Below, one piece after another: positions 42,713-46,834 of a stretch of DNA of 46,834 nucleotides. Location of the stretch: assembly GCF_002694385.1 (NCBI RefSeq), contig NZ_NZMB01000020.1, positions 13,577 through 60,410 on the forward strand. Reading direction: 5' to 3'. Under the pieces are notes generated by a model. The model ran no database searches and had not been told where the DNA came from. It worked only from the letters and a program-made list of their open reading frames with translations. The DNA comes from Sneathiella sp. Lineage in GTDB: Bacteria > Pseudomonadota > Alphaproteobacteria > Sneathiellales > Sneathiellaceae. A program made the position numbers and the translations under genes. Within the stretch, counting starts at the first letter, position 1. Each line of letters opens with the position of its first letter.

Positions 42713-43393
42713 CTAAAATCCGTCTTCGATGATATATCCGGCGCCGCGTACCGTCTTGATCAGGCGGCTGTCCGTATCGCCGAGCTTTTTGCGCAGGCGG
42801 CTGATATGCACATCAATCACGCTGCTTTGCGGATCGAAATGATAGTCCCACACCCCTTCAAGCAGCATTGTCCGGGTAACAAGCTGCCCCTTGAATTTCA
42901 GCAGATATTCCAGCAGCCGGAATTCCCGCGCCTGTAGCTCCACCACCTTGCCGCCGCGCCTGACCTTGCGGCTCAGCAGGTCCATTTCCAGATCTCCCGC
43001 TTTGAGATGGGTCGTCTGCTTCGCCCCCGGCGCGGCCATCCGCTTGCCAAGCGCCTCGACCCGGGCCAGCAGCTCGACAAAGGCAAAGGGCTTGACCAGA
43101 TAATCATCGCCCCCGGCGCGCAGGCCCGTCACCCGGTCATCTACATCACCGAGGGAACTGAGGATAAGAACCCCCACGAGGTTGCCGCTGCCGCGCAATG
43201 TCTTGACAAGCGTCAGCCCGTCGATTTTGGGCAGCATGCGATCGACAATCAGCACATCGTATTTTTCCGTCAGCGCCAGATGCTGCCCGGTTTCACCATC
43301 TTCCGCCGCATCGGCCGTATGCCCGGCCTCCCGCAGCCCCTTGTGGATATAATCGCGGATTTTCGCATCATCTTCGATGATCAGTATTTTCAT
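42713..43393 (-). CDS. OmpR-family response regulator
   Basis: A 226-residue regulator. Receiver domain: acidic pocket D8/D9, phospho-acceptor D51 in V-D-R-M-L-P, S79/S80 and K101 in V-K-P-F. The C-terminal winged helix (about 130-226) ends in V-D-V-H-I-S-R-L-R-K-K-L and V-R-G-A-G-Y, the OmpR/PhoB type. First gene of the two-component operon; its own promoter should lie in 43394-43507. Confidence 0.94.
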   Translation of the reverse strand: MKILIIEDDAKIRDYIHKGLREAGHTADAAEDGETGQHLALTEKYDVLIVDRMLPKIDGLTLVKTLRGSGNLVGVLILSSLGDVDDRVTGLRAGGDDYLVKPFAFVELLARVEALGKRMAAPGAKQTTHLKAGDLEMDLLSRKVRRGGKVVELQAREFRLLEYLLKFKGQLVTRTMLLEGVWDYHFDPQSSVIDVHISRLRKKLGDTDSRLIKTVRGAGYIIEDGF

Positions 43394-43507: not shown

Positions 43508-43699
43508 TCAGCTTCGATCGATAGAACCGATAAGCTGATAGAGATTAAATAGCGTATCATTGGCCGCTTCCGCCAGTTTACGGCAGTCCGGATGATCCCT
43601 GACGAAGGCATTTTCCATCAACTGGCTTTCGACGCTTTCGGCGAGGAACAGCGCCATATGCAGGGCTTCATGTTGATGAAAGGCGTCCGGTTTTTGCAT
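43508..43699 (-). CDS. Small conserved-looking protein of unknown function
   Basis: A 63-residue, all-helical, mildly acidic protein with no membrane segment. It shows H-E-A-L-H-M-A-L-F-L-A-E-S-V-E and H-P-D-C-R-K-L-A-E-A-A-N-D-T-L-F-N-L-Y-Q-L split over two helices with a repeated hydrophobic heptad-like pattern. Such short helical proteins are seen in alphaproteobacteria, though I cannot name the family. It runs in the same direction as the response regulator 114 bp downstream. Codon use fits the host. Confidence 0.5.
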   Translation of the reverse strand: MQKPDAFHQHEALHMALFLAESVESQLMENAFVRDHPDCRKLAEAANDTLFNLYQLIGSIDRS

Positions 43700-44110
43700 T
43701 TTTTCCTCGCAGCGTATCGGGAGTTTTCAGTTTATCGCCGCAGGATAGGCGGCGCGCAACGAATAATCCAGCATCCTATGCGCAGCCATGGACGGCGGAT
43801 AAAATGTTAAATCCAAGAAGGGACGGAATATCTGCCAGGATTCGGTAAAAATTACGTAATACTGGCGAAAAAATTGGTAAATTAAGTAAAATTTCATCCT
43901 ATATTTACAGTATAAAGCCTATACAGCGAATATTAAAAACAGTTATGGGAGAAATTCGGGAAATATCAGGAAAATTGCCCACAGCGCCATCCGGGCGCTG
44001 AATATAATGGCAAGGCGGCGTCTGATCGCGTGTAACTGACATTCCTGCAAAAAACTGACAATAATGTCACAACGGCTCACATCGCCAAAAAAAGTCCGGA
44101 GTCCGTATTT
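43700..44110. other. AT-rich intergenic region upstream of the ankyrin/PDZ lipoprotein gene
   Basis: About 410 bp between divergent genes. It is AT-rich from 43800 to 43960. A hairpin CAGCGCC-ATCCG-GGCGCTG lies at 43982-44000, directly followed by TATAAT (44003-44008), a possible -10 box without a convincing -35. A small palindrome TGACA-ATAA-TGTCA (44056-44069) and GGAG (44098-44101, ribosome binding site) come next. No gene is seen. Confidence 0.4.
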
Positions 44111-46480
44111 ATGCAGATCAGCCTTCTAAACCGTGTCAGCATCCTGCGCGCCGCCGTTATCGCCAGCCTGTTATCGCTTGGCGGATGTTTCACCCCAGTA
44201 GTGACGAGCAGCGGCTCCTTTGGTGACTTCAGCCGCCTTGATCCGCAAAGCCAACGCCAGCAGGTCAAGACCAGCGAAAATCCGGATAAATTGTTCGAAG
44301 CGCTGGTTTACGGCCTGGTCTCGGACCGGACCGATCTTGTAGCGGAAGCGCTGAACGGCGGGGCGGATCCGAACCGCGGGTTGAGTTGGGAGTTCATCCG
44401 GCAAACCAGATTTATTGAATACGAAAAAGAGACCCGGGCACCGGTTACGGACAAGGTATGGGAAGATGGCGGTCCGCTGACAGCATATTCCTTTCTGCTC
44501 GGCGGATGGTGTAACGAGACGGAAAAGACCACGGGGCGTTGCGTCCTGAAAGGGCCCTGGTCAGTCTATGACGTGCCCTCAACGCTGTTTCCGGTGTTCG
44601 CCCTCGTCCGCAGCCCCGAAGCCGTTGATCTCATGCTCCGCCATGGGGCGAAAACGGATCAGGAGCTTCTGGATGGCACCTTTCACGCGGCAGCCCGTTT
44701 CGGCGAAGTGGCTCTCATGCAGCGGCTTGTGGAAATGGGCGCCCGGCCGGATGCCATGGGCGTTGACGGGATGTTTCCCCTGCACCGCGTCGCGCAATTC
44801 GGACATGCGGAGGCCATTGCCTGGCTGCTGGATCAGGGGATAGACCCGAATACCGGCAGCGCCGCGGTTGAGCCCGTTGCCGCCCCGGCAGGCGGGCGCC
44901 TGTATCTCGGCCCCGGTATCGGTCAGGCAGGCGTGACGCCGCTGCATATCGTTGCGGCCAACGGGGTACGGGACATGAAATACGACCAAAAAGACCTGCA
45001 ACCGCTGATCGGCGGCGTGGTGCCGGGTGCCCCGGGGGCGCAGGCCGGTCTTCAGGCGGGCGATGTGATCCGGGCCATTAACGGCCAGTCCATCAATTCT
45101 TTCAAGGATTTTGTCGACATTGTCCGCGCCTCTCCCGGGGTTCCGCTGTCTGTCCGGATCGAGCGGCAGGGGCAGCTCTATGATACCCGTCTCACACCGT
45201 CCGGCCCCGTGGGCGGCGCTGGCCGTGGCGCTTCCGGCGCAGTCGGGGCTTCCTCAGGAGCAATCGCCATCGGTCAGCAGACAATTGGTAAGGCATGGGT
45301 TACTGGCGAGCTATGGCGTCCGGACTGGCGCACTTATTATACCTACAACGAAGGATACCGGGAATCGCTGGAGCTTCTGATCGCGGCCGGGGCCTATATG
45401 GATGCCCGGGCAAACTGGCGCGTGATGCCGAGCTGGTGGAACGCCACCGGCAATCTCGCGGCTTTTGACCAGACGCCCCTGCATGTCGCCTATGATAAGG
45501 CTTCTTTCGATATTGTCGAAGGTCTGATTGACAATGGCGCGGATGAAGACGCGCGCCTCGCGACAGGGGAAACGCCAAAACAAAACTCAGGCAAAGAAAA
45601 CCTGGCGGTTCAGACGGAGGTCTGGCGTTATGAGCAAGAGCAGCGCATGGCACAGGTCCGGCAACGGCAGCAGGATAATGCATCAGATAACAGTTTCGCG
45701 AAGATGATTGCCCTCGGCGGGGCGGCCGCTATAACGGCCTATGGCGCCGGTCAGGGCATGGGCGCCGAATCCCTCACCATGGGTGCCGGCATGGCGGCAG
45801 ATATTCTAAGTGATGGCAAGGCAGGCGGCATTGATACCGCGCGCGATGCCTTGCAAAATCACGCCGCAACGCAGCGCCAGATGGCATCGCCCCTCACGCC
45901 CGTCATGCCGCCCGCGTCATCGCCTGTTTCCTCGGCGTCCCCGCCCGCATCATCCGGGCCCGCCGCGACCGCCACCACGCCCCTTTCCCTGCCCGGGCAG
46001 GTGGCAGGGGCCTGTGAAAACACATTATCCATCGGGTCAGTGCAGCATTCCTTCCTGCAGCTTTCCCTGCCAAGCGGCAGCCGGATTGCGGTGCAGGCCT
46101 CCGTCCATCCCGCAAAAGGCGGGCGGGCCGTGCGGCTTGAAAGTGTGGGGAGCGTCGGCAATGCCAGCCGGATTGTCGCGCAAATCCTCATTCCGGGCAA
46201 CGCTTCCGCGCCGGCTAACCTATCTGTCATGGACGATAATACAGTCCCCGGCCTTGAAAATGGCGCCGTTGGGACATTGGATGTGTATCGCGGCCGGGAA
46301 TATGCCAACTTCCGCAGCAACTTCGATTATGGCCGGAACCGCACCATGGGGTCCGTCCAACTGCTGGAGACGGGCGCGCAATTACGCGGTACGTTCAGCT
46401 TTGATGCGGTTGAGGATGGTTATCCCCGGCGCGGAAATCAATACAAGGCGGATATTGCCGGCAGTTTCTGCGTCTCCTAA
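44111..46480 (+). CDS. Ankyrin-repeat lipoprotein with an embedded PDZ domain
   Basis: A 789-residue predicted lipoprotein. Signal peptide with lipobox L-G-G-C26, followed by Phe at +2, so outer-membrane sorting is expected. Ankyrin-like repeats are seen at about 60-90, 157-185, 190-217 and 221-248. A fifth begins T-P-L-H-I-V-A-A-N-G-V (276-286), is interrupted by about 128 residues, and resumes as Y-R-E-S-L-E-L-L-I-A-A-G-A-Y-M-D-A-R (416-433). The insert holds a PDZ domain (about 298-363: G-A-Q-A-G-L-Q-A-G-D-V-I, I-N-G-Q-S-I) and a Gly/Ala linker. A sixth repeat is at 455-483. Then come a Gln/Arg-rich helix (500-525), a glycine-zipper-like segment (531-575), a Pro/Ser linker (591-628) and a beta-rich C-domain with C635 and C787. 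Function unknown; probably an envelope scaffold. GGAG lies 9 bp before the ATG. Confidence 0.85.
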   Translation: MQISLLNRVSILRAAVIASLLSLGGCFTPVVTSSGSFGDFSRLDPQSQRQQVKTSENPDKLFEALVYGLVSDRTDLVAEALNGGADPNRGLSWEFIRQTRFIEYEKETRAPVTDKVWEDGGPLTAYSFLLGGWCNETEKTTGRCVLKGPWSVYDVPSTLFPVFALVRSPEAVDLMLRHGAKTDQELLDGTFHAAARFGEVALMQRLVEMGARPDAMGVDGMFPLHRVAQFGHAEAIAWLLDQGIDPNTGSAAVEPVAAPAGGRLYLGPGIGQAGVTPLHIVAANGVRDMKYDQKDLQPLIGGVVPGAPGAQAGLQAGDVIRAINGQSINSFKDFVDIVRASPGVPLSVRIERQGQLYDTRLTPSGPVGGAGRGASGAVGASSGAIAIGQQTIGKAWVTGELWRPDWRTYYTYNEGYRESLELLIAAGAYMDARANWRVMPSWWNATGNLAAFDQTPLHVAYDKASFDIVEGLIDNGADEDARLATGETPKQNSGKENLAVQTEVWRYEQEQRMAQVRQRQQDNASDNSFAKMIALGGAAAITAYGAGQGMGAESLTMGAGMAADILSDGKAGGIDTARDALQNHAATQRQMASPLTPVMPPASSPVSSASPPASSGPAATATTPLSLPGQVAGACENTLSIGSVQHSFLQLSLPSGSRIAVQASVHPAKGGRAVRLESVGSVGNASRIVAQILIPGNASAPANLSVMDDNTVPGLENGAVGTLDVYRGREYANFRSNFDYGRNRTMGSVQLLETGAQLRGTFSFDAVEDGYPRRGNQYKADIAGSFCVS

Positions 46481-46520
46481 CGCCGCTCCGACTATTCCCC
46501 TGTCATTGATAACGACGACA

Positions 46521-46608
46521 GATGACCAGCCCCATGGCCTGGTCATCCCATACCCACATGTCATGCGGCCATCGCCCTCCCTGTCACATCCCGGCATCAA
46601 TAGCCGGG
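46521..46608 (+). repeat. Two inverted repeats downstream of the lipoprotein gene
   Basis: GATGACCAG (46521-46529) pairs perfectly with CTGGTCATC (46539-46547), and CCCGGC (46590-46595) with GCCGGG (46603-46608). Neither has a T-run, so they may act as 3'-end structures of the lipoprotein mRNA but are not typical terminators. Confidence 0.55.
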
Positions 46609-46734
46609 CTGACATCGAACAATCTATCTTTTGTGTTGCAGGGGGGATTGATTGTGTCGGCCCTGGCGGTTTTGATTTATGACGGCCTGAGCTTGCTGGA
46701 GCGGGTTTCTGCGCGCCGGATTGGCCGGAGTTAA
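46606..46734 (+). pseudogene. Possible relic of an ABC (osmoprotectant-type) permease C-terminus
   Basis: One frame reads G-L-T-S-N-N-L-S-F-V-L-Q-G-G then a hydrophobic helix with A-L-A-V-L-I-Y-D-G-L and S-L-L-E-R-V-S-A-R-R before TAA. This resembles the last helix of ProW/OpuB-type permeases (N-N, then gap, G, A-L-L-A, D, L-L-E-R), as far as I recall them. No earlier part of such a gene is present in the 240 bp before it, so it would be a decayed fragment. An alternative is a 26-residue small ORF from GTG at 46654 behind a G-run. Nothing is recognised in 46735-46834. Confidence 0.2.
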
Positions 46735-46834
46735 GGCGCGGGCCTATTTGAGTGTGGAGGACAAGGAGCCCTTTTTGCGTGCATCTGCTCTGCTTCCGGA
46801 GTTGATTTGTTGGAGAGGGCCGTTAACGCAGAAA

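Follow-up and report, generated by a model that had tools for sequence, protein, structure and literature searches.

The window examined here is the whole 46,834-nucleotide stretch taken from contig NZ_NZMB01000020.1 of a Sneathiella species (assembly GCF_002694385.1), and near its right-hand end lies a single open reading frame (ORF), at 44111..46480 on the forward strand, that encodes a predicted ankyrin-PDZ lipoprotein of 789 residues. From its N-terminus the protein comprises a putative lipoprotein signal peptide, an array of about six ankyrin repeats (of which two were identified only by eye), Gly/Ala-rich and Pro/Ser/Ala-rich segments, and a C-terminal domain; the parts of the protein described below are all on the forward strand. 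A PDZ domain is nested within one of the ankyrin repeats, an unusual arrangement whose borders are good to a few residues. An earlier note had proposed that 128 residues (287–414), containing a PDZ domain and a flexible Gly/Ala linker, interrupt one repeat of a lipoprotein, with residues 276–286 as its helix A and residues 416–433 as its helix B and hairpin. The frame and numbering of that proposal are correct, residue 287 falling at nucleotide 44969 and residue 414 ending at 45352.

Membership of the ankyrin family is indicated by matches to Pfam Ank (E 2.5e-15; 56.2 bits, cut-off 21.1) and Ank_2 (E 1.5e-13), and the evidence for nesting comes from the behaviour of the two halves of the split repeat. 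By itself the helix A half (residues 272–285; 44924..44965) falls short of the cut-off on an ankyrin model, at 12.8 bits, and the other half, which carries helix B and the start of the hairpin (residues 416–435; 45356..45415), matches no Pfam ankyrin model by itself. When residue 285 is joined directly to residue 416, the product matches Pfam Ank with 26.6 bits (E 6.7e-6) over profile positions 2–32 of 33; for comparison, intact repeats of the same protein give 25.3 and 21.1 bits. A join that is two residues longer (286 to 415) falls to 22.2 bits, a control in which 10 extra residues (406–415) are kept gives 20.1 bits, slightly below the 21.1 cut-off, and a control with seven fewer residues gives no ankyrin match. 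The homologue from Marivibrio halodurans, described below, reaches 25.9 bits on Pfam Ank when it is joined in the same way.

Many more joins were scanned with a local ankyrin hidden Markov model (HMM), built from 102 repeats of ankyrin proteins on viral contigs. With the right half fixed at residue 416, residue 285 ranks first among 385 left ends (32.1 bits), with the adjacent ends 286–289 at 17.6–20.5 bits and the best unrelated left end, helix A of the repeat at 219–250, at 19.3 bits. For the left half, the right end at 416 ranks second of 477, the first being residue 465 (37.8 bits), which belongs to helix B of the next genuine repeat. The Marivibrio protein behaves similarly: the corresponding left end is the best of 372 (27.9 bits) and the right end ranks sixth of 452, all five ahead of it joining into the genuine next repeat. 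Since 285 to 416 is the best join, we take the insert to be residues 286–415 (44966..45355), with a play of about three residues on the N-terminal side and about four on the C-terminal side. The assignment of helices A and B and the restoration of one repeat by removal of the segment both hold as originally proposed, whereas the proposed length does not: the insert extends one residue further at each end and has 130 residues, a length that recurs as a gap in the multiple alignments described below.

Within the insert, residues 296–365 (44996..45205) form a PDZ domain of the RseP type. Pfam PDZ_6 matches residues 300–352 with 52.1 bits (cut-off 27; E 5.5e-14), and the best match of the insert among PDB sequences is the PDZ tandem of a site-2 protease homologue from Aquifex (60 bits, E 3e-15), followed by DegP/DegQ-like and then by RseP PDZ domains. 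The top two NCBIfam models are RseP proteases, and they match only residues 294–379 and 295–365, with 41.6–42.4 bits where the cut-offs are 147.55 and 477 bits. As these matches are confined to 294–379 and lie far below the cut-offs, it is the PDZ domain that is shared with RseP, and the protein is not a protease of that type; a Pfam scan found neither a metalloprotease core nor any peptidase family in it. The best model of the HtrA family likewise matches only residues 297–356, with 34.3 bits against a cut-off of 416.2, and the Pfam scan of the protein gave no trypsin-like protease domain. Among the other PDZ domains of the window's source genome and of Marivibrio, the closest are 29–35% identical to the insert, the best own-genome match sitting in an ORF that looks by eye like RseP; the insert therefore did not arise by recent copying of a PDZ gene already in the genome. 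The PDZ domain is followed by a Gly/Ala/Ser linker (residues 366–385; 45206..45265), which is the Gly/Ala linker of the original proposal and is nine residues shorter in the homologue, and by a tail with a conserved RPDWR motif (residues 386–415; 45266..45355) that is defined by the alignments and modelled with low confidence.

The full-length homologue in Marivibrio halodurans (Rhodospirillales) is 69% identical over residues 9–787 and has the insert in the same place, with both of its flanks. It is the single homologue found, by an exact eight-residue pattern scan of the genome collection, a method that detects close relatives only. Synonymous divergence (dS) between the two is about 1.2, near saturation, and the insert is under purifying selection, with a ratio of non-synonymous to synonymous differences (pN/pS) of 0.41 for the whole insert and 0.29 for the whole protein. 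The PDZ domain itself is 69% identical, and its pN/pS of 0.33 equals that of the ankyrin part at 166–285, which indicates that the domain is being maintained. Its flanks diverge faster, with 45% identity over residues 366–385 (11 aligned residues) and 60% identity, with a pN/pS of 0.50, over residues 386–415.

The remainder of the array lies on both sides of the split repeat. A probable first repeat or N-cap (residues 59–88; 44285..44374), seen by eye and with no Pfam match when scanned alone, is followed by a 66-residue loop (residues 89–154; 44375..44572) containing two cysteines, C134 and C144, that are kept in the homologue; a Pfam scan of residues 89–155 gave no match. The next probable repeat (residues 155–186; 44573..44668) was also recognised by eye and has no Pfam match alone, and lies partly within an Ank_2 match to residues 168–248. 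Residues 187–218 (44669..44764) form a repeat that falls within Ank_2 and Ank_4 matches and scores a weak 15.3 bits alone, and residues 219–250 (44765..44860) form another, matched by Pfam Ank at 219–247 and scoring 25.3 bits alone. Between this repeat and the split one is an additional loop on the hairpin side (residues 251–271; 44861..44923), which appears as 21 gapped columns in each of the 14 ankyrin rows of a MAFFT alignment. Beyond the split repeat is a Trp-rich finger (residues 436–452; 45416..45466), a 16-column gap in the same 14 rows, and then the last repeat (residues 453–485; 45467..45565), with 20.6–21.1 bits on Pfam Ank. Conservation in the array peaks at residues 420–462, a stretch that includes this finger and is identical to the homologue at 40 of 43 positions. 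Ankyrin-like arrays whose repeats look about 29 residues long, recognised by eye in translations, are also encoded on four viral contigs; these repeats appear to be short by the turn between helices A and B, the same turn that holds the PDZ domain in the window protein.

Multiple alignments made with MAFFT reproduce the 130-residue gap in more than one register. With the query starting at residue 186 and 14 four-repeat ankyrin rows, the gap falls at residues 290–419 in all 14, four residues later than the border from the profile test. With the query starting at residue 160 and six four-repeat rows, the E-INS-i mode places it at 283–412, and the --auto and L-INS-i modes join helix A to helix B of the next repeat. 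With rows of half length, among the rows listed, those for the left side were placed as expected and those for the right side slid leftward, and with three-repeat rows and a query from residue 215 the 130-residue gap follows residue 278 and the last repeat is misplaced. Because the alignment from residue 186 matched the profile test in register, it was the one used to predict the structure.

The AlphaFold2 model calculated from this alignment (residues 186–500; 16 rows, 14 of them ankyrin) has a mean predicted local distance difference test score (pLDDT) of 68.8 and a predicted template modelling score of 0.58. It places the helices of the array at 190–196, 200–208, 223–229, 233–241, 277–284, 412–425, 456–462 and 466–474, as one continuous array in which helix A (277–284) and helix B (412–425) are paired in one repeat. 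The ten-residue block holding helix A has a mean pLDDT of 92; for helix B the first block has 55 and the two after it have 96 and 92. In VIA-align, among the matches listed (50 of 991 chains aligned), 145–148 model residues superpose on ankyrin chains, mostly designed ones, with root mean square deviations (rmsd) of 1.7–2.5 Å and Z-scores of 19.4–20.1, and the matched ranges cover both sides of the insert, as expected of a stacked array; we give this agreement moderate weight, ankyrin rows having guided the model. The top Foldseek match is an engineered ankyrin protein (template modelling score 0.84 by target length, rmsd 1.8), and many further Foldseek rows, to longer ankyrin chains, have rmsd values of 13–25 Å, which we put down to threading of the insert. 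PDZ-like strands and a helix are modelled at 319–366, with block means of 75–81 over approximately residues 316–365, and parts of the linkers have values of 24–43. Viral PDZ rows were sought for the alignment, one query giving a single short match and a typed consensus none, so that the modelled PDZ domain is based on two sequences. The packing of 276–286 with 416–433 and the PDZ fold, which the earlier note had named beforehand as tests by structure prediction, are thus both borne out by the model as far as its guided alignment allows, and the homologue search it suggested shows the insertion conserved in the one relative found.

The reading of the protein as a lipoprotein, which also agrees with the original proposal, rests on the lipobox and on the pattern of cysteines. 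A lipobox is recognised by the cysteine with which it ends, and here SLGGC26 follows a hydrophobic stretch within the predicted signal peptide (44111..44188), as SVAGC22 does in the Marivibrio homologue. Each protein has five cysteines, all matched in position, so that C26, C134, C144, C635 and C787 each have a counterpart; one is the lipobox cysteine and four are additional. From these patterns we infer export and lipidation of C26. None of the Pfam matches of the 789-residue protein is to a catalytic family, and the absence of a Pfam enzyme domain, together with the lipobox and the four further conserved cysteines, suggests an exported adaptor.

We judge it somewhat better than an even chance that the protein works as a non-enzymatic adaptor of the envelope, anchored by lipid and offering two binding faces; the role of scaffold or sensor put forward in the earlier note is plausible. 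The RseP-type PDZ domain sits in the turn between helices A and B of the second-last repeat. In ankyrin arrays this turn is at an edge, remote from the hairpin fingers that are the usual sites of partner binding, and a PDZ domain placed there could protrude and leave the customary ankyrin ligand face free; two separate binding faces would follow. Reaching out on its linkers, the domain could capture a peptide or an accessible C-terminus. In the envelope, PDZ domains of the RseP and HtrA types recognise exposed peptide ends, which makes a misfolded, unfolded or tail-exposed envelope protein a reasonable ligand. A second partner may be bound by the fingers, among them the Trp-rich one beside the split repeat; this finger is almost invariant and is the strongest candidate for the site of ankyrin ligand binding. 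The protein would bring the PDZ ligand to this ankyrin-bound partner in the periplasm.

Several observations weigh against nesting or against its functional interpretation. The MAFFT registers changed with the mode, the row length and the start of the query, and because 14 of the 16 rows of the interpreted model had been placed across the gap beforehand, the model is not independent proof; the single-repeat arrangement is compatible with a good model and was not found blind. An earlier AlphaFold2 model of residues 26–521, from the two homologues only, has a mean pLDDT of 40.7, too poor to interpret; it makes helix A (277–284) mostly strand, which at that confidence carries no weight. In the better model the start of the PDZ domain, residues 296–315, has pLDDT values of only 31–43. 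Position −2 of the lipobox in the window protein is a glycine. With only two members found, the conservation of ligand-binding residues cannot be read. The window and a 14 kb Marivibrio locus have this gene alone in common (tblastn, E ≤ 1e-4), so genomic context gives no pathway, and no partner or operon points to one.

The principle of nesting is already known. According to a published survey covering 1.2 million ankyrin repeats, insertions occur in 9% of repeats, are mostly of one residue and are likelier at inter-helix linkers; in arrays of 3 to 10 repeats, those with an insert longer than 60 residues make up as much as 1.2%, and the survey concludes that an ankyrin repeat can tolerate a whole globular domain, with the linker between helices A and B as a tolerant site (PMC7314423). 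The protein described here has intra-repeat insertion at an inter-helix linker in common with such ankyrin proteins and differs from them in that its insert is a PDZ domain, in that it is a predicted bacterial lipoprotein, and in that the arrangement is kept in two species. No PDZ domain nested in an ankyrin repeat was found in the literature searched, as judged by the titles and openings of abstracts that were listed. The RseP and other site-2 proteases provide the closest PDZ type by sequence, but the window protein has no Pfam metalloprotease family and its PDZ domain sits within an ankyrin repeat; HtrA, DegP and DegQ, whose envelope PDZ domains are the next-best matches, have a protease domain that was not found here. 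Scaffolds of the SHANK type combine ankyrin repeats and a PDZ domain in tandem in cytoplasmic, eukaryotic proteins, whereas those of the window protein are nested and bacterial. Pseudomonas AnkB, a periplasmic protein, resembles it as an exported ankyrin protein in a Gram-negative bacterium; we know of no PDZ insert in AnkB.

The interest of the arrangement is that two very widely used binding modules are nested at the turn of one repeat, and not placed in tandem, and that this has persisted long enough for its two carriers to reach 69% identity. It offers a natural test of how much the A–B turn of an ankyrin repeat tolerates, and might serve as a template for biosensors built by insertion, its nearest structures being designed ankyrin proteins. 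It may also represent a new type of envelope adaptor, of which two members are known.

Other explanations accept the nesting and differ over its purpose. The insert could be passive or structural, a self-folding domain accepted at a tolerant turn that adds bulk or reach and engages in no regulated binding. The tolerance of inter-helix linkers for long inserts in short arrays, set out above, and the faster divergence of the PDZ flanks are what such an insert would predict, but the PDZ domain itself is as constrained as the neighbouring ankyrin part, and we regard this explanation as unlikely, if the most serious of the alternatives. Slightly less likely in our view is an allosteric switch, in which a PDZ ligand would alter the packing of the split repeat and so open or close the ankyrin binding face. 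As a switch might require, the insert runs at either end straight into a helix of the split repeat, A on one side and B on the other, and the best-conserved part of the array directly follows it; on the other hand, the linkers of about 10 and about 50 residues around the PDZ domain look loose, one of them varies in length and the model gives them low confidence, which argues against tight coupling. That the protein is a natural domain-insertion switch in the full sense, with the PDZ ligand in control of the ankyrin face and a peptide-gated scaffold operating outside the cytoplasm, we hold to be a shade more doubtful still.

A further alternative denies the nesting itself and takes the halves as two unpaired half repeats, with residues 272–285 having lost their helix B, or having it in 286–297, and with residues 400–435 as a separate degenerate repeat. 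Residues 286–289 could indeed start a helix B: the model has a short helix at 289–291, the preferred MAFFT gap begins four residues beyond the profile border, and the second-best left end in the homologue (21.1 bits) lies four residues past the best. Two of the three MAFFT modes, moreover, bypassed the pairing by joining helix A to the next repeat, and the control with 10 residues retained ahead of helix B remains close to the cut-off. Against this, the join restores an exact 33-residue register and outranks every other left end in both proteins, the unjoined halves reach at most 12.8 bits on Pfam ankyrin models, and the model is of one continuous array, so that we consider unpaired halves very improbable. 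An artefact of assembly, frameshift or annotation, for which one might cite the end of the 60,410-base contig 354 bases past the gene (46480–46834), can practically be dismissed, as the 789 codons lie in one open frame and the same architecture in the genome of another species is no assembly accident.

The region beyond the array is conserved unevenly. A Gly/Ala-rich segment (residues 529–568; 45695..45814) lies in a region that is well kept in the homologue (87% identical over 541–570), and a Pro/Ser/Ala linker (residues 594–630; 45890..46000) is not (20% over 601–630, gaps included). The C-terminal domain (residues 631–789; 46001..46477), which contains the conserved C635 and C787, is 81% identical and, at 0.17, has a lower pN/pS than any other region measured; a Pfam scan of residues 627–789 gave no match, and it is possibly a new domain.

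Searches for further relatives, in sets of genomes that overlap, gave no full-length match in the 94 other genomes near the window (E ≤ 1e-10) or in the 97 others near Marivibrio (E ≤ 1e-9). Two of the former and four of the latter gave partial matches limited to residues 281–368, which we attribute to other PDZ proteins. None was found at E ≤ 1e-15 among 384 other genomes of the class by full alignment, a scan that scored two candidates per genome shown and is a weaker negative than the scans with the C-terminal domain. The latter gave one match in the class (E 7e-4), rejected as chance because a 1,080-residue ORF on the opposite strand is the longest there; there was no other among the same 384 genomes, and none at E ≤ 1e-4 among 397 other genomes of the phylum. 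The plasmid collection gave no match, nor did the viral contigs for the full alignment. The absence from 23 congeners and from the one other genome of the family may reflect either gain or repeated loss; the G+C content of the gene (61.5%) is like that of the window (60.5%), so composition gives no support for horizontal gain.

Upstream of the gene, and divergent from it, are a response regulator (42713–43393) and a histidine kinase. None of the 23 further genomes from the genus contains a match to the response regulator at E ≤ 1e-80, and the flank beside the gene may likewise be peculiar to this species. A scan for promoter and terminator consensus sequences found four sites of each, against 1.9 and 3.4 expected, and nothing usable. 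In Marivibrio the gene has a polysaccharide deacetylase upstream and, downstream, a 207-residue ORF that has no Pfam match, followed by Hsp33. In the window the gene is preceded by an AT-rich intergenic stretch (43600–44100) with approximately 43–45% G+C, compared with 60.5% for the window, and this stretch is likely to be a regulatory region.

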